NCBI RefSeq assembly: GCF_947494755.1
Contig: NZ_CANLVZ010000001.1
Location: forward strand, 124,001 to 188,000
Reading direction: 5' to 3'
DNA from: an uncultured Tateyamaria sp.
GTDB lineage: Bacteria > Pseudomonadota > Alphaproteobacteria > Rhodobacterales > Rhodobacteraceae
DNA: 64,000 bases
Numbering within the stretch: the first letter of the stretch is position 1; each line of letters starts with the position of its first letter. Both the position numbers and the translations under genes were made by a program. Positions 2,301 to 45,905 of this stretch are shown piece after piece. Below the pieces are notes generated by a model. The model saw only the letters and a list, made by a program, of their open reading frames with translations, was not told where the DNA came from and searched no databases.

Positions 2301-3080
2301 ATGGATCTGGGACTTTCAGGAAAGCGGGCGGTGGTGTGTGCCTCCTCCAAGGGTTTGGGTTTGGGCTGTGCCGAGGCGTTGGCCGCTGCGGGCGTGTCGC
2401 TGGTGATGAACGCGCGCGGGGCAGAGGCGCTTGAGGCGTCCGCGCAGGCCATTCGCGACACCCATGGAGTCGACGTGGAGACCGTCGCCGCAGATGTCAC
2501 CACTTCCGAAGGGCAGGCGGCCCTGATCGAGGCGGCAGGTGACGTCGATATACTGGTCAACAACGCGGGCGGCCCCCCTCCGGGCATGTGGACGGACTGG
2601 GACCGGGATGACTTCATCGCCGCGCTGGATGCCAACATGCTGGCCCCCATTGCGCTGATCAAAGCACTGGTGCCGGGCATGATGGACCGGGGCTGGGGCC
2701 GTGTGGTCAACATCACTTCGCAATCGGTCAAGGCCCCCATCGCGGTTCTGGGCCTGTCCAATGCGGCGCGCACGGGCCTCACGGGCTATGTGGCGGGCAC
2801 CTCGCGGCAGGTCGCGGGCAGCGGTGTGACCATCAACAACCTGCTGCCAGGCATTCACGCCACCGACCGGGCGGACGCGCTGGATGGCGGTGTGGTCAAG
2901 GCCCAGGGGATCACGCTGGACGAGGCCCGCAGCCAACGCGCGGCGACGATCCCGGCGGGGCGCTATGGCACGCGGGAAGAGTTCGGGGCGGCTTGCGCTT
3001 TCTTATGCTCGCAACATGCGGGCTTTATTGTGGGACAAAACCTTCTGCTGGATGGCGGGGCGACCGTGGCCACGATCTGA
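2301..3080 (+). CDS. SDR family oxidoreductase lacking the YxxxK catalytic pair
   Basis: 259 residues with a Rossmann fold: a nucleotide-binding turn CASSKGLGLGCA (residues 13-24), NNAG at 87-90 and the catalytic-strand serine in NITS (Ser140). The tyrosine and lysine expected 13 and 17 residues later are replaced by Ser153 and Arg157 (GLSNAAR). The protein therefore belongs to a divergent SDR branch whose chemistry is uncertain, although it still ends with the usual LLLDGGATVATI tail. Start choice: an AAGGAG Shine-Dalgarno at 2288-2293 lies 7 bases before the ATG at 2301; an adjacent ATG at 2298 and a longer frame from 2253 are less likely. Its stop overlaps the start of the AlkC-like gene by one base (TGATG), so the two are probably cotranslated. 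Confidence 0.85.
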   Translation: MDLGLSGKRAVVCASSKGLGLGCAEALAAAGVSLVMNARGAEALEASAQAIRDTHGVDVETVAADVTTSEGQAALIEAAGDVDILVNNAGGPPPGMWTDWDRDDFIAALDANMLAPIALIKALVPGMMDRGWGRVVNITSQSVKAPIAVLGLSNAARTGLTGYVAGTSRQVAGSGVTINNLLPGIHATDRADALDGGVVKAQGITLDEARSQRAATIPAGRYGTREEFGAACAFLCSQHAGFIVGQNLLLDGGATVATI

Positions 3081-4207
3081 TGGCCCGCGCTCTGGCCACA
3101 TTTTCTCTGAAGGATCAACTCTTTAACGCTGAGTCTCTCGGTGATCTGGCGAATGAATTTGCAGCCGGAGTGCCGGGCTTTGACCGCGCCGCCTTTCACG
3201 CGGCGGCGTTGTCGGGCATTGCGGATCGCACGTTGATGGAGTGTCTTGATTGGTTCGCCGATTGCGCCGAACCCTATCTGGCATCGGATTTTCCAACCAT
3301 GGCGGATCAGTTGGAGGCGGCCATGCCCGCGCCACTTGACCCCACCTTGCGCGATGATGACTTTGGCCGCTTCATCCACGCGGTGCCGGGCGTTTTGGTC
3401 GTGCGCCACGGGCTCGAGGATCACAGCGACCGCGCCCTTGATCTGCTGTATGCTGCCACGAAACGGTTTTCGATGGAGTTCTATATTCGTCCCTTCCTGA
3501 ACCGCTGGCCGGATGAGACCTTGGCGCGGCTGGCGCTCTGGGCGCAGGACGAAAACTATCATGTGCGCCGATTGGTCAGCGAAGGCACAAGGCCCAAACT
3601 GCCTTGGGCGCGCAAGGTCGAGGTGGGCGGGGCGCAGACCCTGCCGCTGCTGGATGCGCTGCATGGGGATCAGACCCGCTTTGTCACGCGATCCGTGGCG
3701 AACCATCTGAATGATGTGGCCAAAGACGATCCCGCCGCGGTGCTGGACCGGCTGAGCGGATGGGAAAAAGCAGGCACGCAATCCCCGAAGGAGCTGGACT
3801 GGATGCGGCGTCATGCCTTGCGCACACTGATCAAGGATGGGCACCCCGGCGCGATGGAAATGCTGGGCTATGCGGGTGATGTCGCTGTAGATGTCGCCCT
3901 TGAGGTCGCGACACCTGTGATTGCGTTGGGAGATCCGCTGGACTTTGAGGTCACGATCACCGCATCCGAACCGGCCCCTGTGCTGGTGGACTACCGCATC
4001 CGCTTTGCCCGCCCCGGCGGCAAGACGGGAGAGAAGGTGTTCAAGCTGAAGGTGGGCAAGGTCGCGCCTGGCAAGCCGCTTGTCTTGCGCAAGGTCCATA
4101 AACTTAAGGCCAACGCGACCACATTTGCGCTTTATCCCGGTGCGCATACGGTGATTTTGCAGGTGAACGGCGTGGACCGGGCCGAGGCGGCGTTTGAGAT
4201 CACCTGA
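3080..4207 (+). CDS. DNA alkylation repair protein, AlkC-like
   Basis: 375 residues. The N-terminal two thirds are helical HEAT-like repeats with the AlkC/AlkD-type stretch RFVTRSVANHLNDVAKDDP (about residues 195-213) and WMRRHALRTLIKDGHP; this superfamily excises positively charged alkylated bases without base flipping. The last roughly 95 residues switch to a beta-rich segment (DPLDFEVTITASEPAPVLVDY onward) like the immunoglobulin-like domain described for AlkC, which helps clamp DNA. The ATG at 3080 overlaps the stop of the SDR gene, which fixes the start; a longer frame from 2993 would run far into that gene. No Ada-box or other alkylation-response site was recognised upstream. Confidence 0.85.
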   Translation: MARALATFSLKDQLFNAESLGDLANEFAAGVPGFDRAAFHAAALSGIADRTLMECLDWFADCAEPYLASDFPTMADQLEAAMPAPLDPTLRDDDFGRFIHAVPGVLVVRHGLEDHSDRALDLLYAATKRFSMEFYIRPFLNRWPDETLARLALWAQDENYHVRRLVSEGTRPKLPWARKVEVGGAQTLPLLDALHGDQTRFVTRSVANHLNDVAKDDPAAVLDRLSGWEKAGTQSPKELDWMRRHALRTLIKDGHPGAMEMLGYAGDVAVDVALEVATPVIALGDPLDFEVTITASEPAPVLVDYRIRFARPGGKTGEKVFKLKVGKVAPGKPLVLRKVHKLKANATTFALYPGAHTVILQVNGVDRAEAAFEIT

Positions 4208-4225
4208 TGCGCCCGGTCGGCGGCT

Positions 4226-4269
4226 GGTCTGTTTTGAGCACTGCTCTAAAGACGCCCACCCACCGACCC
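4226..4269. repeat. Hairpin/G-rich intergenic repeat, copy 1
   Basis: First of four related intergenic elements. On the plus strand it reads GGTCTGTTTT, a hairpin (GAGCA C TGCTC flanked by TTTT and AAA), then GACGCCCACCCACCGACCC. The outer ends GGTC and GACC can pair. The minus strand of the tail is GGGTCGGTGGGTGGGCG, four G-runs with short loops. It lies between the AlkC-like gene and the symporter gene, both on the plus strand. Confidence 0.6.
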
Positions 4270-4348
4270 AATCACGTTTATGTGCTGCTTATGGTGTGCG
4301 CCTGCGCGCCCTGCTAATTCGCGCGGGACGCATTTTGAAAGCAAGCCG

Positions 4349-5704
4349 ATGTCCCCTGTCATTCTGATCGCCAGCTTTGTATTCCTGATTGTCCTCAGTG
4401 TGTTGGCCGCACCCCGCCGCGCGACGGTCGAAGGCTTTTTCGTGGGCCGTGTCGGCACGCAGGCACCGGGATTGTGGGTGCTGGTCCTCAGCCAGGTGAC
4501 CACATGGATTTTCGCGCGCAGCCTGATGAACGCGGCCATTCTGGGCTACTTCTACGGGATTGCCGGCACGCTCGCCTACGCGGCCTATTACGGCAGTTTC
4601 CTGACTGGCGGTTTCATCGTGTCGCGCTTGCGCACGGGTGGGGCAGGGTCGGTGCAGGACTGGTTGGGCACGCGTTTTGGCGCGGTCGGGACGGGCACGT
4701 ATAATGTGGTGATCGGGCTGCGCTTGTTGTCTGAAGTCTTTGCCAATCTGCTGGTTGTGGGCCTGATCGCAGGTGCGGTGATCGCGGGCAGTGCGACCTA
4801 CGCCATCGTTCTGGTGTCCATTGTCGGTCTCGCCTACGCGGCATGGGGTGGCCTGAGTGCGGCCTTGCGCACCGATGTCGTACAGATGGCGGTGTTTCTG
4901 ATCGTCTTTGTCGTCGCTTTCGCATTCCTGATCCTCAGCCCCGGTTTCTCTTGGGGCGCGGTGCTGAGCGCGCCGGGCACGGCGGGGGCCTATAACGGCT
5001 GGGTGCTGCTGGTGGTCGCGCTGTTGCAGGTGTTTTCCTATCCGGCCCATGATCCGGTGATGATGGATCGCGGGTTTCTGGCGGATGAGGCCACGACGCG
5101 TCGGTCGTTTGTGCATGCGTTCTGGCTGTCGACGCTGTGTATCATCGGCTTTGGATTTTTCGGGATACAGGCCAGCCTTGCGGGCGCAGACTATGAGGCT
5201 GAATTGATCGGCACGTGGGCGGGGATGTTCCCGCCATGGGTCTTTGCACTGCTGATGATCTCATTGCTGGTCTCGGCCATGTCCACGCTGGATTCGGCGC
5301 TGGCCTCGGCTGCGCGGTTGGTGGTCGAAGAACTGCGCCTTGCACCCCGCTCACTGGCTGGAGGGCGCGCTGTGATGGGCGTGTTCATGGCCCTCGGGGC
5401 GGCGCTGACGCTTTGGGGCAATGCGACGCTGTTTGATGCGGTGGCGGTGAGTGGGACGGCCTCCATGTTTCTGACGCCCGTGCTGATCGTGGGGCTCGTG
5501 ATGGGGCGGGCGGTGCCGGTCTGGTCTTATGGAGTGGCGTTCGCGGCAGCGATCCTGGGGGCATTTGCATACTTCGCGCGGGGCTGGCCAAGCGTTGCCG
5601 CGCTGCTGCCCGAAGGGCACAAATACGAGCAGTTGCTGGTGATTTGCGGTGTGGTCCTTGTCGTCGGCTTTGCGGCAGTGCTTGCGGGCGCGCGCCGTGC
5701 CTGA
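4349..5704 (+). CDS. Sodium:solute symporter (SSS) family transporter
   Basis: 451 residues with about 12-13 hydrophobic membrane segments. The SSS signature is present as AYAAWGGLSAALRTDVVQ (near residue 165-182: aromatic, GG, A, TD, Q), and the later motif SAMSTLDSALASAARLVV matches the Na+-site helix of this family. It would import a small solute driven by Na+; the substrate is unknown. The ATG at 4349 gives an N-terminus that goes straight into the first helix; a longer frame from 4280 adds an unlikely cysteine-rich lead. It is followed after 36 bases by an ABC ATPase and two Lin0512 genes, an unusual combination suggesting one transcription unit. Confidence 0.88.
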   Translation: MSPVILIASFVFLIVLSVLAAPRRATVEGFFVGRVGTQAPGLWVLVLSQVTTWIFARSLMNAAILGYFYGIAGTLAYAAYYGSFLTGGFIVSRLRTGGAGSVQDWLGTRFGAVGTGTYNVVIGLRLLSEVFANLLVVGLIAGAVIAGSATYAIVLVSIVGLAYAAWGGLSAALRTDVVQMAVFLIVFVVAFAFLILSPGFSWGAVLSAPGTAGAYNGWVLLVVALLQVFSYPAHDPVMMDRGFLADEATTRRSFVHAFWLSTLCIIGFGFFGIQASLAGADYEAELIGTWAGMFPPWVFALLMISLLVSAMSTLDSALASAARLVVEELRLAPRSLAGGRAVMGVFMALGAALTLWGNATLFDAVAVSGTASMFLTPVLIVGLVMGRAVPVWSYGVAFAAAILGAFAYFARGWPSVAALLPEGHKYEQLLVICGVVLVVGFAAVLAGARRA

Positions 5705-5740
5705 TACCTCCCGACTGTTTTGATCGGGAATTGACGTGAC

Positions 5741-6826
5741 GTGACTGCGCCTCGGCTTGAAATTCGCAATCTGGTCCGCAGTTTCGGGGGCCGCCGGGTG
5801 GTGGATGGCGTCAGCCTGATCATCCAGCCCGGGCAGGTGACGTGTTTGTTGGGCCCGTCGGGATGCGGCAAGTCCACAACACTGCGCATGATTGCCGGGG
5901 TCGAGATGCAGGATTCGGGCGAGATCTATGTCGATGGCGCGTTGATCTGCGACACGAAGTTCCGCGTTCCGCCCGAACGGCGCGAGATCGGACTGATGTT
6001 TCAGGACTTCGCATTGTTCCCGCATCTGAGCGTGGCGGGCAACGTCGCCTATGGGCTGAGCGGATCGAAGGCCGAAAAACGCGCCCGGGTCGAGGAGATG
6101 CTCGACAGGGTGCGCATGTCGCGCTTTATCGACGCCTATCCACACCAACTGTCGGGGGGCGAGCAGCAGCGCATCGCGCTGGCCCGTGCGCTTGCGCCAC
6201 GTCCCCGGATCATGTTGATGGACGAGCCGTTTTCGGGGCTTGATAATCGCCTGCGCGACGACATTCGCGATGAGACGCTCGCCATCCTCAAGGAAGAGGA
6301 CACGGGCGTCTTGCTGGTCACGCATGAACCGGACGAGGCGATGCGCATGGCGGACGAGATTGCGCTGATGCGCGACGGTGTGATTGTGCAGCGCGGTGCG
6401 CCCTATAATGTCTACACCCGGCCCGTGGATCGTGCCTCGGTCGCGTTTTTCAGTGATGCCAATCGATTGCGGTCGGTGGTTGAGGGCGCGTTGGCGATGA
6501 CCCCATTTGGCCGCTTTCTGGCCCCTGGTGTGTCGGATGGAACGCCGGTGGACATCGTGTTTCGCCCCCAACACGTCAAGATCGACTTTGACCGCGCAGG
6601 TGTCGGCCCCGGACCCACTCCGACCGAAGGGACTGCGGCACGCGCGCACGTGATCCGTGCGCGGTTCATGGGCAACGAAAGCCTGATCGAATTCCGCATG
6701 GACGACACCGGCGCGATCATCAAATCCACCGTGCCGGGTGTGTTCCTGCCTCCTGCGGATACGGTGATGTGGCTGCGCATCCGTCGCGACAAATGCTTTG
6801 TTTTTGAGAGTGGAGAGGGCCCATGA
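5741..6826 (+). CDS. ABC transporter ATP-binding protein (FbpC/PotA-like), no permease nearby
   Basis: 361 residues. Walker A GPSGCGKST is at 38-46, the Q-loop at MFQDFALFPHLS, the signature LSGGE at 137-141, Walker B IMLMDEP at about 157-163 and the H-loop in LLVTHEPDEA. The last 110 residues form a TOBE-like domain as in importers for ferric iron, thiamine, putrescine or sugars (FbpC, ThiQ, PotA, UgpC). No permease or binding protein gene lies beside it, so its partner is elsewhere or it serves something other than a classical importer. The start is a GTG; no closer ATG exists. Its stop overlaps the next gene by four bases (ATGA). Confidence 0.88.
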   Translation: MTAPRLEIRNLVRSFGGRRVVDGVSLIIQPGQVTCLLGPSGCGKSTTLRMIAGVEMQDSGEIYVDGALICDTKFRVPPERREIGLMFQDFALFPHLSVAGNVAYGLSGSKAEKRARVEEMLDRVRMSRFIDAYPHQLSGGEQQRIALARALAPRPRIMLMDEPFSGLDNRLRDDIRDETLAILKEEDTGVLLVTHEPDEAMRMADEIALMRDGVIVQRGAPYNVYTRPVDRASVAFFSDANRLRSVVEGALAMTPFGRFLAPGVSDGTPVDIVFRPQHVKIDFDRAGVGPGPTPTEGTAARAHVIRARFMGNESLIEFRMDDTGAIIKSTVPGVFLPPADTVMWLRIRRDKCFVFESGEGP

Positions 6827-7167
6827 GTGGACCAATGATCGTGGAATTTGGGCTTGGAACATCGCTCCGGCGAGGAAGCTATACCGAAGCCGCTGCGCGT
6901 GCGGTGCGGGCTGCCTTGTGGCGCAATTCGATCAACCTGGCCGAATATATGGGCGTGTCCAAAGAGGACATGGTGATTGAAGTGCGCATTGGATGCGCGC
7001 AGCCCGATCGGGTGGATGTGTCCGTTCTGGCTGAGGTGTTTCCCTACGGGTCCACCTCTTTTGTGGTGGAGAAGGGCGGGCTGGACGTGGTGCGCCCAGA
7101 CGGCGCCGGCAATCCGACGGTAATGGCGCAGGCGGCGTTGATCGTGTCGGTGGAGGGTGCGGCATGA
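6823..7167 (+). CDS. Lin0512 family protein, first copy
   Basis: 114 residues, matching the small conserved Lin0512 family of unknown function by its layout: a GLGTSLRRG start, an alternating strand-helix pattern, the VRIGCAQPDRVDV strand, FPYGSTSFVVEKGGLDVV and a final hydrophobic strand. The fold looks like a small alpha-beta protein with the conserved VEKGGLDV loop. It is cytoplasmic (no signal peptide or membrane helix). It overlaps the ABC ATPase upstream and its own paralogue downstream by four bases each, so the three are translationally coupled and may form a heteromer of the two Lin0512 proteins. No catalytic residue can be named. Confidence 0.8.
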   Translation: MSGPMIVEFGLGTSLRRGSYTEAAARAVRAALWRNSINLAEYMGVSKEDMVIEVRIGCAQPDRVDVSVLAEVFPYGSTSFVVEKGGLDVVRPDGAGNPTVMAQAALIVSVEGAA

Positions 7168-7499
7168 GTGAGCAGCGGTTGATCATTGAGATGGCCCAAG
7201 GCGTTGATCTGCATGGGCGCGACGACACCAAAGCGGCGCGGCGCGCGGTCGAGCAGGCCTTGCAGGGCGCGTCCCTGCCGATCTTTGGCACGCTGGATGT
7301 GGAGCGCGATACCATGCGGGTGGTCGTTCATATCGGTGTGCGGCGCCCCGAGGTGGTCGATGTGGCGGTGATTGCCGGGCTCTTGCCTTATGGATCGGTC
7401 GAGGTTGTCGTGGAAAAGGGCGGCTTGGATGTGCCTGTGGCAGGCGAAGTACATGTAATGGCTGTGGCTGCGCTAGAGGTTTTCCTGCCTGTCCGCTGA
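7164..7499 (+). CDS. Lin0512 family protein, second copy
   Basis: 111 residues, a diverged tandem paralogue of the preceding gene. It keeps the same blocks: EMAQGVDLHGRDDTKAARRAV, VVHIGVRRPEVVDV, LPYGSVEVVVEKGGLDVPV and a C-terminal hydrophobic strand. The first copy has GLGTSLRRG where this one has AQGVDLHGRD, so the two differ most at the N-terminal loop, as expected for subunits that have divided roles. Function is unknown. The ATG overlaps the previous stop (ATGA). The gene is followed by a hairpin repeat and then a convergent WYL regulator. Confidence 0.8.
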   Translation: MSEQRLIIEMAQGVDLHGRDDTKAARRAVEQALQGASLPIFGTLDVERDTMRVVVHIGVRRPEVVDVAVIAGLLPYGSVEVVVEKGGLDVPVAGEVHVMAVAALEVFLPVR

Positions 7500-7508
7500 T
7501 CGTCGTGC

Positions 7509-7558
7509 GGCTCTGTTTGCAGGCACAAAGACGCCCGCCCGCCGACCCCGGTGGCGGG
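7509..7558. repeat. Hairpin/G-rich intergenic repeat, copy 2, with extra stem-loop
   Basis: Second copy of the element seen at 4226. The conserved tail ACGCCCGCCCGCCGACCCC is intact (minus strand GGGGTCGGCGGGCGGGCG) while the inner hairpin is weak (TTTG and CAAA only). An additional perfect stem CCCGCC/GGCGGG with a 9-base loop spans 7538-7558 and ends at the stop codon of the convergent WYL gene; it may terminate the Lin0512 transcript. Confidence 0.55.
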
Positions 7559-8230
7559 TTACAAATTCGGATCGTAGTCGCTCAGCCGCTTGCCGGGTTC
7601 ATCCACGAACATCTGCGGCAACGCTTCGGCCGATTGAATGAGATCGACCCGGAACACACGGAAATCTTTGCGTAATTCGCACCATGATGTGAGTGTCCAG
7701 ACCCGTCCCCAATATTCCATATGCAGCGGGCGAATGGTGCGTGGGGTGATCCGGTCGCCTTTGGAGTGATAGGTGAGGCGCAGCTTTTGGCGCGCGCGGA
7801 TGGCCGCCCGCAGTGTCGGCATCTGGGCAAAGCCGCGCACTGCATCGGCAAACGGATAGACCGCGAATTTCCATTTATCGGCCTCGGCCACGGTGCGTTC
7901 CGGCAGCACTGCGTCGATTTTGTCGGCGAGGCTACCGGCGGCCGCTTTCAGATCGTCATCCGCTGCTTGCGCAACGATCGCCATGCCGAGGTTGAGGGCC
8001 TCGAGTTCATGGGCCGTCAACGTCAGCGGGGGCAGGCTGATCGCTTCGGTGATCATATAGCCAACGCCGCGTTCGCCCTGTACGGGCACGCCGGAGGCCA
8101 CAAGCGTGTCCATATCGCGATAAATCGTGCGCACCGACACCTCAAGCGCGTCCGCCATGTCCTGCGCACGGTGCAACTGCCCGTCACGCAGGATCTGAAT
8201 GATGTCGAACAGGCGGTCGGTGCGGCGCAT
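7559..8230 (-). CDS. YafY-type HTH/WYL transcriptional regulator
   Basis: 223 residues. An N-terminal winged helix-turn-helix (MRRTDRLFDIIQILRDGQLH, ALEVSVRTIYRDMDTLVASG) is followed by a linker and a C-terminal WYL-type domain (LRLTYHSKGDRITPRTIRPLHMEYWGRVWTLTSWCELR, here with GRVW in the WYL position). Such proteins sense a ligand through the WYL domain and usually regulate the neighbouring gene. The ATG at 8230 is chosen because the HTH begins there; the upstream gene ends at 8232, one base away, so the two are one operon. A strong inverted repeat at 8581-8608, upstream of the partner gene, is the likely operator. Confidence 0.88.
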   Translation of the reverse strand: MRRTDRLFDIIQILRDGQLHRAQDMADALEVSVRTIYRDMDTLVASGVPVQGERGVGYMITEAISLPPLTLTAHELEALNLGMAIVAQAADDDLKAAAGSLADKIDAVLPERTVAEADKWKFAVYPFADAVRGFAQMPTLRAAIRARQKLRLTYHSKGDRITPRTIRPLHMEYWGRVWTLTSWCELRKDFRVFRVDLIQSAEALPQMFVDEPGKRLSDYDPNL

Positions 8231-8231
8231 G

Positions 8232-8534
8232 TCAGTCCGGGTGCAAGTGAACAACTGCGTGGCGCATCACCATGTCCGCAGGCTCAATCAACGCCATGAA
8301 CGGACCCGCCTCGGGGCGTTCGAACATGGCCTTCGCGGCGGCATCAGCGGCAGTCCGGCTGGTCCATGTGATGTGGTCGGTCCACAGACCGTCCTCATCC
8401 ACGCTGAGCGTGCGGGCGATCATGTCGCCGGTCCCGGTGAGGAACGGCATCAGCCCTTGGGCCGCCTGGACAAAGGCTGCGGCGTCAGCATCCGGTTTCA
8501 GGCGGAAGGTCACGATTTCGGCGGTGGTGGTCAT
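8232..8534 (-). CDS. Small ferredoxin-fold (ABM/Dabb-like) protein
   Basis: 100 residues. The pattern AEIVTFRLKPDADAAAFVQAAQGL, a central DGLWTDHITWTSRTAADAAAKAMFE segment and a C-terminal VVHLHP strand fits a dimeric alpha-beta barrel of the antibiotic biosynthesis monooxygenase or stress-responsive A/B type. These are small cytoplasmic enzymes or binding proteins; the substrate is unknown. The ATG at 8534 has a GAGGGA Shine-Dalgarno about 6 bases upstream; an ATG at 8549 is the alternative. It is the first gene of an operon with its WYL regulator, typical for such regulator-target pairs. Confidence 0.75.
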   Translation of the reverse strand: MTTTAEIVTFRLKPDADAAAFVQAAQGLMPFLTGTGDMIARTLSVDEDGLWTDHITWTSRTAADAAAKAMFERPEAGPFMALIEPADMVMRHAVVHLHPD

Positions 8535-22533: not shown

Positions 22534-23001
22534 TCAGGCGATTGTGTCCGATTTTTCACCAATCGCGCGGGCATTTGTGCCTTGATCCGTGCGCCAACTG
22601 ACCCAAAGCGAGGTCAGGATACAGGCGGTGAACAGGTAAAGCCCCCATGCGGTTTCAAGCCGCCCGACGCCGATTCCCTTGGCCAACGTGATGTAAAGCG
22701 CGATCAGGAAGATGTCGGCCATGGCGAGCTTGCCGAGGATGGTGAGTACAGGCGTGAGGCGCACGCTCAGCAGATTCCAGTGGATCAGTGCCAGTCCGAT
22801 GGTTTTCAGCAGCGGAGCCACCAACGCAAACAGGGTCACGACCAGCGCGAGGATCACATCGGTTTTCCACAGCGATTGCAAGCCTGTGATGACCGAGATT
22901 TCCTTGAGGTTGAACAGCGGCAACAGACCGGCGCGCATCAGCGGCGCAAACCACGACAACGGAAACAGGACAAGGAGGCAAAGGTTGATCCAGCGGTGCA
23001 T
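22534..23001 (-). CDS. PqiA/LetA-like membrane protein
   Basis: 155 residues. The N-terminus MHRWINLCLLVLFPLSWFAP starts a set of four membrane helices with the PqiA-domain features FPLSWFAPLMRAGLL, VITGLQSLW, a central hydrophobic helix and LAMADIFLIALYITLAKG. It is half the length of E. coli PqiA/LetA, having one domain. Those proteins work with MCE-domain partners in lipid transport between membranes, and mlaF and mlaE are directly upstream on the same strand. The start at 23001 is set by the domain; a longer frame to 23214 is not supported. A GC-rich repeat lies in the 73-base gap to mlaF. Confidence 0.82.
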   Translation of the reverse strand: MHRWINLCLLVLFPLSWFAPLMRAGLLPLFNLKEISVITGLQSLWKTDVILALVVTLFALVAPLLKTIGLALIHWNLLSVRLTPVLTILGKLAMADIFLIALYITLAKGIGVGRLETAWGLYLFTACILTSLWVSWRTDQGTNARAIGEKSDTIA

Positions 23002-23025
23002 ATCTACTCTTGATGGGGGCGGTGT

Positions 23026-23073
23026 GGGACTGTTTGGCCCCTGAGGGGTCCAAATGCGCCCACCCGCCGTCCC
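23026..23073. repeat. Hairpin/G-rich intergenic repeat, copy 3
   Basis: GGGACTGTTTGG, a hairpin (TTTGG CCCC TGA GGGG T CCAAA), then TGCGCCCACCCGCCGTCCC. The outer GGGAC and GTCCC pair perfectly, whereas copy 1 has GGTC and GACC, so the outer stem covaries. The minus strand of the tail reads GGGACGGCGGGTGGGCG. It lies one base beyond the mlaF stop, between mlaF and the PqiA-like gene. Confidence 0.65.
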
Positions 23074-23074
23074 T

Positions 23075-23821
23075 TTATCTGACGGCCTCGATTGGTCCTG
23101 TGGCGCGTCCATGGATGAATTGATCGAGATAGGGATCACCTGCGCTGTCCATCTCGCTGACCGGGCCTGTCCAGCGGATCTTGCCAGCATGCAGCATCGC
23201 CACATGGTCCGCAATTGTGCGCACGCTGCTCATATCGTGGGTGATTGTCATGGTGGTCGCGCCCATTTCGCGCACGATTTCGCGGATCAGGTCGTTGATG
23301 ACCCCAGCCATGATCGGGTCGAGCCCTGTGGTGGGTTCGTCGAAAAAGATGATCTCGGGGTCGGCGGCGATGGCGCGCGCCAGCCCGACGCGCTTTTGCA
23401 TGCCGCCCGAGAGTTCCGCCGGAAGCCGATCCGCCACATCCGGCGTCAGCCCGACCCGTCGCAGTTTTTCGATGGCGATGTCGCGCGCCTCGGTGCGCGG
23501 TTTGGCAAGGCTGCCACGCAGCAGTCGGAACGCGACGTTTTGCCAGACGGGCAGGGAGTCAAAGAGAGCGGCCCCCTGAAACAGCATCCCGAAGCGTGCC
23601 AGAAACGCGTCGCGGTCGGTTTGGGTGACGTCGGTGCCATCGACGGTGATTGTGCCTGCATCAGGTGTCACAAGCCCCAGCACGGATTTAATGGCAACCG
23701 ATTTGCCCGTGCCTGATCCGCCAATGATGACCATGGATGTGCCCTTGGCCACGTGCAGGTTCACGCCTTGCAGGACGTGGTTGGTGCCGAATGCTTTGTG
23801 GACGTTGTCGAGAGTGATCAT
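23075..23821 (-). CDS. mlaF: ABC transporter ATP-binding protein MlaF
   Basis: 248 residues. Walker A GGSGTGKS (about 35-42), signature LSGGMQKRVGLARAI, Walker B IIFFDEPTTGLDP and TMTITHDM H-loop, with the GMQKR and FDEPTTGLDPI features of MlaF-type proteins. It powers phospholipid movement between the inner and outer membranes together with the permease MlaE, 70 bases upstream. No MCE-domain MlaD gene is present next to the pair. It is followed by a hairpin repeat and a PqiA/LetA-like gene. Confidence 0.9.
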   Translation of the reverse strand: MITLDNVHKAFGTNHVLQGVNLHVAKGTSMVIIGGSGTGKSVAIKSVLGLVTPDAGTITVDGTDVTQTDRDAFLARFGMLFQGAALFDSLPVWQNVAFRLLRGSLAKPRTEARDIAIEKLRRVGLTPDVADRLPAELSGGMQKRVGLARAIAADPEIIFFDEPTTGLDPIMAGVINDLIREIVREMGATTMTITHDMSSVRTIADHVAMLHAGKIRWTGPVSEMDSAGDPYLDQFIHGRATGPIEAVR

Positions 23822-38064: not shown

Positions 38065-38610
38065 ATGACATGTGCACCTGTGATCCACATTGGCGGCTGG
38101 CCGGGCGCGGGCAAAAAGACCATTGGCCGGATCGTGGCCGAGCGATTGAATGGGCGACTGATCCATAACCACATCATGCTCGACGCGTCGCGGGCCATCT
38201 ATGCGCGCAATACGCCCGAGAGCATTGCAATGCGCGAAGAGGTGCGGTCGCTTGTTCTGGCCCATGCGCGGCGCTTGCCTGAAGACGTGCCCATTGTTCT
38301 GACGGACGCATTGGCCGATGAACCGGCGGCCGGACCGTTGTTCCAGCCAACGCTGCAGCTTGCCAAAGATCGAAATGCACCGCTGCGGGCGTTCGTGTTG
38401 GATCTGACTGTCGAGGAAAACCAACGCCGGCTTTCAGATCCTGCGCGGTCGGGCGGACATAAGTTAACAGATGTCGATCTGCTGAAGGCTCTGCGCAGGC
38501 GAGACCGGTTATTTCTTCCTGACGACGCGGTTGTCATTGATGTGACGGACATGTCTGTGCATGCCGCAGCGGATCGGATTTGCGCGCATTTGGACCGCCC
38601 TGATGCCTGA
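38065..38610 (+). CDS. Small P-loop kinase-like protein with altered Walker A
   Basis: 181 residues. The phosphate-binding loop reads HIGGWPGAGKKTIGR (about 8-22; GxxGxGKK rather than GxxGxGKS), with HNHIMLDASRAIYA, VLTDALADEP and a final IDVTDMSVHAAADRI helix. It resembles short adenylate/shikimate-kinase-like or AAA_33-type proteins; the substrate is unknown. It starts 4 bases after the MoxR gene and overlaps the VWA gene by 8 bases. The insertion of a kinase between a MoxR/VWA pair is unusual, and its codon use looks slightly less GC-rich than its neighbours. Confidence 0.7.
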   Translation: MTCAPVIHIGGWPGAGKKTIGRIVAERLNGRLIHNHIMLDASRAIYARNTPESIAMREEVRSLVLAHARRLPEDVPIVLTDALADEPAAGPLFQPTLQLAKDRNAPLRAFVLDLTVEENQRRLSDPARSGGHKLTDVDLLKALRRRDRLFLPDDAVVIDVTDMSVHAAADRICAHLDRPDA

Positions 38611-39856
38611 ATACGCCCCACTCAATCTCCCGGACGAGCCGAAACTTGCAGGCAACATCACTCATTTCGCGCGCGCCCTGCGCCGCGCGGGCATCCCCAT
38701 TGGCCCGGGTCGGATCATCGACGCGATCCGCGCAGTGGAGGCGGCGGGGTTTACGCAAAAACGGGATTTCTACTGGACACTGCACGCCTGCTTTGTCTCA
38801 AAGCCCGAACAGCGCACGGTTTTTGCCCAGATATTCCGGCTCTACTGGCGCGATCCGCGATACCTTGAACACATGATGGCGGCGATGTTGCCTGCAGTGC
38901 GCGGCGTCCAGGAAGATCGCGGCGCGCACGCCGCCGAAAAACGCGCTGCCGAGGCGTTGCTGGACGGGGCAGGGGCCCTCGATGTCGATGAGCCCGAACA
39001 GGAAGACGGGACCGAGATCGAGGTCGACGCCTCGCTGACCATGTCTGCCGAGGAAAAGCTGAAGACGCTCGATTTCGAACAGATGAGCACGGCGGAAATG
39101 GCGCAGGCCAAGGCGATGCTGGCAAGGATGCGCCTGCCGGTGGACCCGGTCCCGACGCGGCGCAGCAAGGCGGCGGGCATGGGGCGCATCGACAGCGCCC
39201 GCACCTTGCGCGCGGCCATGCGACAGGGCGGAGAACTCCATGATCTCAAGTGGAAAACGCCGCGCGCGCGCTATCCAAATTTGGTGGTGCTGTGCGACAT
39301 TTCCGGTTCGATGAGCCAGTATTCCCGCGCCGTCCTGCATTTTTTGCATGCCGTGAGCAATGCCAAGGGTGCGGGATGGGCGCGTGTGCATGCTTTCACC
39401 TTCGGCACGCGGCTGACCAACATCTCGCGCCACCTCGATCAGCGCGACGTGGACGCTGCCCTCAAGGCCGCAGGGGCCGAGGCACAGGATTGGGAAGGCG
39501 GCACGCGGATCGGGGTGTGTCTTGAGACCTTCAATCGCGACTGGTCGCGGCGCGTCATGGGGCAGGGGGCTGTTGTTCTTTTGATCACCGATGGGTTGGA
39601 TCGGGACGACCCGGACGCCTTGGCCAAACAGATGGAGCGGCTGCACCTTTCTTCCCGCCGCCTGATCTGGATCAATCCTTTGTTGCGATGGGACGAATTC
39701 GCTCCGAAGGCGCGCGGTATTGCGGCGATGCTGCCACATGTGGACAGTTTCCGCGCGGGCCACTCGATAGCCTCACTGGAAGAGTTGGCCGCCGTGATCT
39801 CGAAACGCGACGACGTGGGCGACCGGGATCGCCTGTTGCGTCAGGTAGCGTCCTGA
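38603..39856 (+). CDS. VWA domain protein (CoxE-like)
   Basis: 417 residues. An N-terminal CoxE-type helical region (HFARALRRAGIPIGPGRIIDAIRAVE, LFRL/FWTLHACFVSKPEQRTVFAQIFRLYW) is followed by a VWA domain with MIDAS core VVLCDISGSMSQYSR (DxSxS), THE later GGTRIGVCLETFN and LLITDGLDRDD. It is the predicted partner of the MoxR ATPase in the same operon; in carboxydotrophs such pairs (CoxD/CoxE) help insert the metal cofactor, but no CO dehydrogenase gene lies here. The ATG at 38603 overlaps the kinase gene by 8 bases. Confidence 0.88.
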   Translation: MPEYAPLNLPDEPKLAGNITHFARALRRAGIPIGPGRIIDAIRAVEAAGFTQKRDFYWTLHACFVSKPEQRTVFAQIFRLYWRDPRYLEHMMAAMLPAVRGVQEDRGAHAAEKRAAEALLDGAGALDVDEPEQEDGTEIEVDASLTMSAEEKLKTLDFEQMSTAEMAQAKAMLARMRLPVDPVPTRRSKAAGMGRIDSARTLRAAMRQGGELHDLKWKTPRARYPNLVVLCDISGSMSQYSRAVLHFLHAVSNAKGAGWARVHAFTFGTRLTNISRHLDQRDVDAALKAAGAEAQDWEGGTRIGVCLETFNRDWSRRVMGQGAVVLLITDGLDRDDPDALAKQMERLHLSSRRLIWINPLLRWDEFAPKARGIAAMLPHVDSFRAGHSIASLEELAAVISKRDDVGDRDRLLRQVAS

Positions 39857-39868
39857 CGGGCCGGGACC

Positions 39869-39912
39869 GGGACTGTTTTGGCGTGCGCCAAAAAGCGCCC
39901 GCCCACCAACCC
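39869..39912. repeat. Hairpin/G-rich intergenic repeat, copy 4 (best-formed)
   Basis: GGGACTG, a perfect hairpin TTTTGGCG TG CGCCAAAA, then AGCGCCCGCCCACCAACCC. The minus strand of the tail reads GGGTTGGTGGGCGGGCGC with four G-runs. It fills the gap between the VWA gene and purL, ending 2 bases before the purL stop, as copy 3 does next to mlaF. Confidence 0.7.
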
Positions 39913-39914
39913 TT

Positions 39915-42074
39915 TTAGGCGAAGGTCTCGCCAAAGCTACTGCGATAGATCGCGCTCAATTCGGCCAATTGCGCCCCGGATTGGCCGAACCATACGCTAT
40001 CGGAGGTGAACTTGCCCACCGACTTGATCGGCACGTCCGCGCGCCCCGCCGCGATCATCAGCGCCTCGGCCTTATCGAAATTGCATGCCACCAAATAGCG
40101 GCCCTGATCCTCGCCAAACAGCGTGCCCATGTCGCTGCTATCAAGCCAGATGCCCACGCCCGCCGCCTCGGCCAATTCGAATGCGGCCAGCGCAAGGCCC
40201 CCATCCGACAGATCGGTACAGGCTGTGATGAACGCGCGGTTGTCGCGGATGAAATCGCCGTGGCGCTTTTCGAGGTCGAGATCCACCGCAGGCGCGTCCC
40301 CTTCGGCGCGCCCGAACACTTCGGCGAGCAGTGCGGATTGACCCAAATGTCCGCCGCATTCCCCGATCATCAGCGCCACATGCCCGTCGCGTACATCGCA
40401 GCCGATCATCTCATCATCCGAGGCCAAGAGCCCGACCGCCCCGATGGTGGGGGTCGGCAGGATACCCACCCCGTCGGTTTCGTTGTAGAGCGACACATTG
40501 CCCGACACGATCGGCATATCGAGCGCCGCGCAAGCCTGTCCGATCCCGTCGAGCGCGCCAACGAATTGGCCCATGATCTCCGGCTTTTCGGGATTGCCGA
40601 AATTGAGATTGTCGGTGGTCGCGAGGGGCTTTGCGCCCACAGCGGTGAGGTTGCGATAGGCCTCGGCCACCGCCTGCTTGCCGCCCATCACAGGGTTCGC
40701 TTTGACATAGCGCGGGGTCACATCTGACGTAAAAGCGAGCGATTTTTCCGTGCCGTGGACGCGTACGATGCCCGCGCCCATGCCCGGCGTGCGGGCGCTG
40801 TTGGCCATGACCATGGTGTCGTATTGCTCGTACACCCACTGTTTGGCGGCATAATTCGGGCTGGAAATCAGCGCGCGCAGCCCGTCGATCGGATCGACCG
40901 CCGGCACATCGCCAAGCGGCTCTGCGGCAGGGGTTGGCACCCACGGGCGGTCGTATTCCGGCGCTTCGGACGAGAGTTTGGACAGCGGCAGATCGGCCTT
41001 CACCTCGCCGCCATGCTCGATGATGAACCGATCCTCGGCGATGGTTTCGCCAACGATGGCGAAATCAAGGTCCCATTTGTCGAACACGGCCTTGGCTTCG
41101 GCCTCCAACTCGGGCTTAAGGACCATCAGCATCCGTTCTTGGGACTCCGACAGCATCATCTCATAGGCCGTCATCGCCGTTTCGCGGACCGGCACGGCGT
41201 CGAGGTTCAGCCGCACCCCGAGCCCGCCCTTGTCGCCCATTTCCACGGCGGAACAGGTGAGGCCCGCGGCCCCCATGTCCTGAATGGAGATCACCGCACC
41301 GGTTCGCATCAACTCCAGCGTGGCTTCCATAAGCCGCTTTTCCGTGAAGGGGTCGCCGACCTGCACGGTAGGCCGCTTTTCCTCGATGGTGTCGTCGAAC
41401 TCGGCCGAGGCCATGGTGGCCCCGCCCACGCCATCCCGGCCTGTCTTGGCCCCCAGATAGACAACGGGCATGCCCACACCGGAGGCGGCGGAATAGAAAA
41501 TCTTGTCCGCATCCGCGAGCCCGGCGGCGAAAGCGTTCACAAGGCAGTTGCCGTTGTAAGCCGGATCGAAACGGACCTCGCCCCCCACACATGGCACACC
41601 GAAGGCGTTGCCGTAGCCGCCGACACCTTCGACGACACCGTGCACAAGCTGGCGGGTCTTGGGGTGATCGGGCATCCCGAAGGACAGTGCATTCATCGCA
41701 GCGATGGGGCGCGCACCCATGGTGAAGACGTCACGCAGGATGCCACCCACGCCAGTCGCGGCGCCCTGATAGGGTTCGATATAGGAGGGGTGGTTGTGGC
41801 TTTCCATCTTGAAAACAACGGCTTGGCCGTCGCCGATATCCACAACGCCTGCGTTCTCACCGGGGCCGCAGATGACCTGCGGACCGGTGGTTGGCAGCTT
41901 TTTGAGGTGCAGTTTTGAGGACTTGTACGAACAGTGCTCGTTCCACATTGCCGAGAAGATGCCGAGTTCGGTGAAGGTCGGCGTGCGGCCCATGATTTCG
42001 AGGATGCGGGCATATTCATCCGGGCTGAGGCCGTGGCTCGCGATCAGGTCATCGGTGATCTGTGGTTCTTGCAT
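39915..42074 (-). CDS. purL: Phosphoribosylformylglycinamidine synthase subunit PurL
   Basis: 719 residues, the length of the PurL of three-subunit PurLQS enzymes. It converts FGAR plus glutamine-derived ammonia to FGAM in purine synthesis. Family motifs: [11 protein letters not shown] near the start, the [23 protein letters not shown] block (first part [12 protein letters not shown], about 83-94) and GxxGCSG-like repeats in the second half. It stands alone here: purQ, purS and purB are not in the window. A hairpin repeat follows its stop codon. Confidence 0.96.
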
Positions 42075-45740: not shown

Positions 45741-45769
45741 AAAAAAAAGGCCGAGCGCTAAGCTCGGCC
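45741..45769 (-). terminator. Strong rho-independent terminator after lysR
   Basis: On the minus strand GGCCGAGC and GCTCGGCC pair perfectly around a 5-base loop and are followed by TTTTTTTT (45741-45748). It is the strongest terminator in the window and lies 136 bases beyond the lysR stop. Confidence 0.85.
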
Positions 45770-45779
45770 AAGTCCAACA

Positions 45780-45785
45780 GGGAGG
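45780..45785 (-). ncRNA. Possible small RNA 3' region with CCTCCC motif
   Basis: The minus strand just before the terminator contains CCTCCC, an anti-Shine-Dalgarno type motif often seen in small regulatory RNAs of Rhodobacteraceae. The RNA would come from the lysR 3' end or its own promoter; the 5' end is not defined, so only the motif is given. This is a weak call. Confidence 0.2.
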
Positions 45786-45905
45786 TATGAAGATCGCGCC
45801 GAAGCGCCATGTCTCTTCACGGATCGAGTTAGGCCCGCCAATGCCCCCAATCAAGGCACTTTGTGAACTTCACATGACATGTCCGGCATGCACCATTTGC
45901 ATAGC

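Follow-up and report, generated by a model that had tools for sequence, protein, structure and literature searches.

The hairpin repeat described here, dispersed mostly between the genes of Tateyamaria and of some other Rhodobacteraceae, is oriented with the replication fork, whichever way the neighbouring genes run. Four copies, E1 to E4, lie in a stretch of 64,000 nucleotides from an uncultured Tateyamaria sp. (contig NZ_CANLVZ010000001.1, positions 124,001 to 188,000; the whole stretch is called the window). The orientation rule is the new point: an initial annotation, made from the letters of the window, missed it, together with most of the left arm of the element. We tentatively regard the copies as DNA hairpin repeats of the repetitive extragenic palindrome (REP) kind, placed at the 3′ ends of genes, with close to an even chance that they are locked to fork orientation by mobility on the single-stranded lagging-strand template.

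A dispersed, structured repeat

The four copies that the initial annotation placed on the plus strand were confirmed: the pattern CTGTTTN{5,30}CGCCCRCCCRCC has four matches in the window and none in 100 dinucleotide shuffles. The same strict pattern gave 12 matches in the whole genome of 4.1 Mb, versus none for a reversed-pattern control, and a covariance model built from 31 copies found 24 copies there (E up to 0.01). Such a model and a search of relatives had been proposed at the outset; both were positive, the model, under stricter filters, detecting the repeat in 15 of 129 genomes that each represent a different genus. Every window copy extends about 12 nt further 5′ than first annotated, the left arm having been cut off. 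Rfam 15 produced no match at the element, either in the window at the gathering score or in 141 bases round E4 at E up to 5, and among the open-licence PMC papers listed none was recognised as a description of this hairpin repeat. The original proposal of a dispersed, structured repeat that has no known name was right.

At least 140 copies were collected across genomes; they are a sample of related copies, and their rows are not independent. The search pattern fixed CTGTTT, and it fixed the tail as far as the second R and CC; GACCC was left free for copies from the search across genomes. Six of 146 copies were discarded as chance matches and two more, at loci under 3 kb, were left out, which gave 138 loci. 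The covariance model scored the true strand well above the other (for instance 50.2 versus 24.0 bits at L424), a weak opposite-strand match being seen in 6 of 44 model-scored copies and reaching at most 24.0 bits, so the orientation of an element is clear. Genomes, contigs and loci are cited where necessary by our own numbers (G, C and L, respectively; G000 is the genome of the window).

Orientation follows the replication fork

On contig G003:C1 (3.86 Mb, taken as a whole chromosome), GC skew and the octamer GGGNAGGG flip sign between 1.36 and 1.54 Mb, the other sign change falling around 3.3–3.5 Mb (sampled skew, octamers). All 11 model matches point to the switch at 1.4–1.5 Mb, five lying on the plus strand at 0.80–0.96 Mb and six on the minus strand at 1.74–2.83 Mb. 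On G358:C1 (3.93 Mb, another genus), where the signs change near 0.7 and 2.6 Mb, 10 of 10 model matches agree (six plus at 1.02–1.98 Mb; four minus at 0.29, 0.43, 3.30 and 3.40 Mb). Judged by sampled skew, 21 of 21 copies on these two chromosome-size contigs are thus directed from origin to terminus. Strict clustering at the terminus was rejected: 10 of the 11 copies in G003 lie within about 0.7 Mb of the switch, whereas those of G358 are spread out. The GGGNAGGG octamers are themselves strand-biased by replichore in both contigs and in contigs C1, C5 and C2 of G000, and in this they resemble KOPS.

The rule holds well beyond these two contigs. In 19 genomes of the genus, 184 pattern copies form 98 neighbouring pairs (G012:C99 and one G015 match excluded), 96 of which are same-strand. 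One of the two opposite pairs spans the G003 terminus; the members of the other lie 1.70 Mb apart on a 1.86 Mb contig of G017 and may be separated by a replichore change. G063 and G021 add five more such pairs, without an exception (by eye). In the genome of the window, contigs C1, C5 and C2 bear 8, 7 and 2 copies in a single orientation per contig, which fits both the pooled skew (0.041, 0.023 and −0.023) and the octamers (19:1, 10:2 and 1:5) of sampled stretches. GC skew is positive in 15 of 15 sliding stretches of the window (0.001–0.091). Flanking skew is positive on the element strand at 131 of the 138 loci, the other seven lying between −0.043 and −0.001; an initial count that included chance matches had been 134 of 144.

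The direction of the genes has little bearing on this. Gene settings at the 138 loci were taken from a crude codon-based caller, and skew was positive on the element strand in 67 of 70 convergent (‘+-’) settings, 21 of 21 ‘++’, 18 of 22 ‘--’, 3 of 3 divergent (‘-+’), 15 of 15 inside an open reading frame (ORF) and 7 of 7 with no call. Genes beyond the two neighbours lie on the element strand in 52.5% of cases (109 loci), so that the direction of transcription does not explain the rule. An operon at window 4280–7499, encoding an ABC-transporter ATPase and two Lin0512-family proteins (Pfam), is found in opposite orientations among Tateyamaria species: it runs with the element at L003, L136 and L158 and against it at L040 and L043, while in all five loci its 3′ end lies at the element and skew is positive on the element strand. 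The far-side gene at L040 is the relative of the gene before E1, and the operon may there have turned while the element stayed. In L096 versus L137, and in L047/L073 versus L122, the gene shared by the compared loci also adjoins elements of opposite relative orientation, comparisons that are suggestive only, with skew near zero at L137 (0.003) and L073 (0.007).

Fold and covariation

The element forms one long hairpin: its left arm pairs with a conserved C-rich tail, and enclosed between them are an asymmetric internal loop and an inner TTT..AAA hairpin. The consensus of 140 copies reads, in order, a left arm of approximately GTCGNCGGGYGG, two bases followed by CTG, the inner stem, [GT][GA]CGC and the tail CCRCCCRCCGACCC; beyond its opening TTT/AAA, the inner stem is free in sequence and length. 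In E4, the 12-nt left arm that partners the tail occupies 39859–39870 on the plus strand (register from the pairing analysis; this and the following positions, all on the same strand, were read off the sequence). It is followed by the 5′ side of the internal loop, ending in CTG (39871–39875), the inner hairpin TTTTGGCG-TG-CGCCAAAA (39876–39893), supported by the inner-stem pairing analysis, the 3′ side of the loop (39894–39898) and the right arm (39899–39910), which is the conserved C-rich tail and whose complement bears the G-runs.

Copy alignments upheld the earlier view that the inner hairpins vary while their pairing is kept and that the outer stem covaries, the latter in a longer register than first given (the 12-nt left arm with CCRCCCRCCGAC). 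Among the 31 aligned copies, both sides of a pair had changed in 25 cells, compared with 7.1 in shuffles (none of 500 reached that value), and 81.2% of cells pair, compared with 38–50% on sliding by 1–3 columns. Two of five covariation measures gave no excess over shuffles (pairs changed on both sides, 5 versus 3.8; further pair types, 8 versus 7.9). In the 140 copies, left position −5 and the first tail R combine as C-G 76, T-A 22, C-A 20, G-A 15, G-G 6 and T-G 1 (Fisher p 1.8e-11 for the C/T by G/A cells). G063 and G358 have a second subtype, GACG.../...CGTCCC with one extra C, and G000 and G003 have it alongside the first; the outer pairs of the two subtypes switch together. Thus, in related copies whose rows are not independent, 138 rows with GAC tails have left arms with GTC (95), GCC (24), other (16), both (2) or GAC (1), and 23 rows with GTC tails have GAC (17), GCC (3), other (2) or both (1), with GTC alone never found.

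The initial annotation had spoken of a folded RNA or DNA. The inner stems hold 977 Watson–Crick pairs, 4 G.T, 5 A.C and 16 other mismatches. Constraint on an RNA should leave G.U clearly in excess on one strand, and neither strand has such an excess, which suggests that the hairpin is conserved as DNA rather than RNA, judged from the stems by themselves. The claim is thereby narrowed toward DNA; an RNA reading would also leave an orientation that tracks replication, not transcription, unexplained. The outer stem (113 A.C versus 10 G.T) was not used to infer the strand, as the right arm hardly varies and C faces A, T and C about equally often (50, 73 and 67). The minus strand has the lower fold energy in 114 of 138, but for the same reason this was not taken as strand evidence.

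Setting at gene ends

Copies lie close behind genes. Between the left arm and the stop codon of the upstream plus-strand gene there are at most 10 nt in 66 of 91 cases; between the tail and the stop codon of the downstream minus-strand gene there are at most 20 nt in 62 of 92. That only intergenic positions are occupied, as had been claimed, is true of the four window copies; the crude gene caller puts 15 of the 138 collected copies inside an ORF.

All four window copies lie on the plus strand, within the covariance-model limits given here. E1 (4214–4269; 41.5 bits, pattern match) is in a ‘++’ setting between ORFs 2993–4207 (+) and 4280–5704 (+). E2 (7497–7548; 58.8 bits) separates a convergent pair, a Lin0512-family ORF at 7164–7499 (+) and a WYL/HTH ORF at 7559–8254 (−), as assigned by Pfam. 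E3 (23014–23073; 46.8 bits) is in a ‘--’ setting, flanked by two genes that both run against it, a PqiA ORF at 22534–23001 (−) and an ABC-transporter ATPase ORF at 23075–23821 (−) (Pfam). E4 (39857–39912; 33.8 bits) fills the convergent gap between a VWA/CoxE-like ORF at 38561–39856 (+) and an AIRS-domain ORF at 39915–42074 (−) (Pfam), beginning directly after the stop codon of the first and ending 2 nt short of that of the second. Elsewhere in the window, at 45743–45824 on the minus strand, Rfam identifies SorX, the singlet oxygen resistance RNA X, with 53.7 bits, which exceeds the gathering score.

Distribution and turnover

The content of a given site differs between species. The E4 region was matched in 20 of 20 genomes of the genus, 19 of which had a readable gap. 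Five of these carry the element there (G006 and G009 with copies that the strict pattern misses), four a different palindrome, eight a structured insert, one an unrelated 61 nt and one only 5 nt. The other palindrome, AAGATTTTTCGTACGAAAAATCT or nearly so, occupies the convergent gap in L276 (G011), L279 (G002), L280 (G013) and L282 (G004). The structured inserts of the eight species (L283–L286, L288–L291) measure 186–333 nt and are of at least two kinds, one of which also matches L318 (G003) and a 37-nt stretch in L033; given these further matches, it may be repeated. These long inserts were rejected as copies of the present family, their sequences being different, and Rfam at the gathering score gave nothing in seven E4-site loci, including five with structured inserts.

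Of 20 genomes, eight have the element at the E3 site. Shorter gaps of 18–55 nt without it were seen in five, the second gene is not adjacent in six and the gap could not be placed in one. In G011 the element lies 2–3 nt past the stop codon of the first gene, ahead of a TTGACA-like box (by eye). This box before the PqiA gene is common to G011 (L455, with the element) and to G002, G004 and G013 (L456–L458, without it).

Inner-hairpin edit distances were obtained for 121 of the 138 copies. Within a Tateyamaria genome they average 0.459 (266 pairs), much the same as the 0.456 of copies at different sites in different genomes (4128 pairs), and copies at orthologous sites are more alike (0.347; 166 pairs). 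Recent amplification within Tateyamaria is thus not seen in these distances. By contrast with this genus, the inner hairpins of three Mameliella genomes and one metagenome-assembled genome are nearly uniform (0.09–0.12; 54 pairs in all).

The number of copies per genome ranges from 0 to 24. The strict pattern matched in 25 of 61 relatives, with credible copies in 19 of the 20 genomes of the genus plus G021; G023, G030, G037, G055 and G059, all outside the genus, were not counted, G023 because it lacks a strict match and the other four because the hairpin is missing from their loci. Within the genus, G019 has no element by pattern. In the family as a whole, 16 of 394 genomes contain the pattern. 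The covariance model found one copy in G344 and none in G022, G032 and G028 at E up to 0.01. Phage-borne copies were rejected: none of 72 pattern matches in IMG/VR passes the hairpin filter.

Discussion

In the observed orientation, the strand reading left arm, CTG, hairpin and C-rich tail serves as the lagging-strand template when the fork passes; it would be single-stranded there and could fold. If the copies spread in the manner that we tentatively propose, an enzyme acting on single-stranded hairpins would recognise the fold and its asymmetric internal loop, and by copying or inserting the element on the lagging-strand template it would produce one orientation per replichore regardless of the genes; mobility rather than function would then set the rule. 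According to PMC6006769, IS200/IS605 transposases recognise hairpins and work on the lagging-strand template, and in PMC3733652 the alphaproteobacterial CGTC repeats are likewise without a transposase. Turnover at individual sites, the patchy spread and lineage-specific uniformity favour an insertion activity.

Several observations weigh against spread by mobility. Most Tateyamaria copies are inherited and not recent, since those within a genome are no closer than those between genomes, and old copies should show exceptions after inversions, of which no clear one was found. Y1 transposases are absent from the genome of the window and exceed the cut-off in 3 of 20 genus genomes, including the element-free G019; mobilisation by Y1/RAYT in the present genome was rejected for lack of any Y1 there. 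No target duplication was seen, no systematic search having been made for one. Origin and terminus were placed by sparse skew samples, not by dnaA or dif, and the samples at 2.32 Mb in G003 and 3.2 Mb in G358 have the opposite skew, though their octamers agree.

That inherited copies show hardly any exceptions favours instead a selected polar site, acting on or for the passing fork or another translocase (a barrier to backward forks, a restart or priming site, or an FtsK-like guide), from which wrongly oriented copies would be lost. We hold this to be unlikely, though the strongest of the alternatives: exceptions to the orientation are nearly absent, tail and loop are conserved at old inherited copies with differing inner stems, and in three comparisons the neighbouring genes are reversed while the element stays fork-oriented, two of them with the weak skew noted above for L137 and L073. 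A version in which a fork-associated factor reads the folded single strand on the lagging-strand template at gene ends, misoriented copies being selected out, is rather improbable; if true, such a folded polar site would be a structural counterpart of the sequence sites KOPS and ter. A selected site fits poorly with rapid gain and loss, the range from no copy (by pattern, in G019) to 24, and presence in only 15 of 129 sampled genera. Clustering at the terminus is unsteady between G003 and G358. A Tus fork trap was rejected, as no Tus was found in 21 genomes (0/21, with a positive E. coli control). A primase start at CTG was rejected too: the pattern itself fixed CTG, and just 12 of 20 copies outside it keep the triplet, five having CTC (by eye).

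Readings that make the orientation rule a side effect, or that place the function in the opposite strand, fare less well. A 3′-end RNA element or bidirectional transcription terminator would suit the closeness of stop codons on both sides and the prevalence of convergent settings, where often nothing else lies between the genes. We nevertheless think it improbable, because no T-run follows the hairpin (T at the four positions after GACCC in 50, 63, 59 and 43 of 140 copies), the inner stem has no G.U excess and the element does not turn with the preceding gene, as the 21 ‘++’ and 22 ‘--’ settings and their skews attest. The minus-strand G-rich tail, which the initial annotation took for a possible two-tier quadruplex, lies, by the observed orientation, on the leading-strand template. 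Its four G-runs were imposed by the pattern in the 140 copies, but they are also retained in 19 of 20 copies outside it (by eye), and the tail varies mostly between the runs. However, one run has only two Gs, and the tail pairs and covaries (at the R positions) with the left arm, which accounts for much of the same conservation; a putative quadruplex as the working part is very improbable.

The element works most like a REP, yet it departs in tested features from GTAG-REPs, CGTC-REPs, Tus-ter and intrinsic terminators, the last of which have a T-run that is missing here. With REPs of the GTAG superfamily (TnpAREP/RAYT, REPINs) it shares short extragenic hairpins behind genes and, probably, spread via single-stranded DNA. 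Unlike them, its printed copies show, by eye, no GTAG/GTGG or constant tetranucleotide of that kind at the hairpin, its own genome has no cognate Y1 gene, and there are no inverted pairs as in BIMEs and REPINs, neighbours being overwhelmingly in the same orientation. Orientation by replichore is common to the element, KOPS/AIMS and Tus-ter. Both of the latter are short double-stranded sequences, whereas here pairing is conserved and the inner-stem sequence free; the rise in density of KOPS/AIMS toward the terminus has a parallel in G003 but not in G358. Integron attC sites are also strand-specific hairpins behind genes, with GTTRRRY core sites and an integrase; the ends of the present element read GGTCG/CGACC.

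Among repeats described in papers, the CGTC-tagged REPs (PMC3733652) come close, being mostly alphaproteobacterial and downstream of genes; they lack a dedicated transposase, and here a search for Y1 found none in the genome of the window. They have a CGTC tag, a stem of 8–9 bp that opens with A-T pairs, a CCA tail and a head-to-head dimer arrangement, whereas the present element has a CTG loop, a double stem and a C-rich tail; by eye it shows neither CGTC tag nor CCA tail, although its inner stem does begin with T-A pairs. The passages of PMC3733652 at hand contain no statement on orientation relative to replication. BRE of Betaproteobacteria are intergenic with a similar copy number and, according to PMC3110155, are ‘not co-orientated with the direction of the replication fork’. 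The triplex motif BoxC/PIT/TM-ECO is, according to PMC4666352, intergenic, G/C-rich and present in about 20 copies at variable sites, with ‘no bias to strand orientation’; the triplex requires a homopurine stretch, and the left arm here is not homopurine. IS200/IS605 elements (PMC6006769) share hairpin recognition and the lagging-strand template, both of which would hold for our element by analogy, but it lacks a coding sequence and is just one hairpin, about 55 nt long.

Many bacteria have dispersed hairpin repeats; two whose orientation is reported in the papers cited above, BRE and TM-ECO, follow no rule. The E3-site element could be examined for effects on the PqiA promoter, since the TTGACA-like box is kept with and without it, and the orientation rule could mark replichore direction in draft genomes of the Roseobacter group. 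A fork rule that is nearly free of exceptions, independent of the genes and found in more than one genus offers a way into two questions: how transposase-less alphaproteobacterial repeats spread, and whether chromosomes contain sites that are read as folded single-stranded DNA at the fork.
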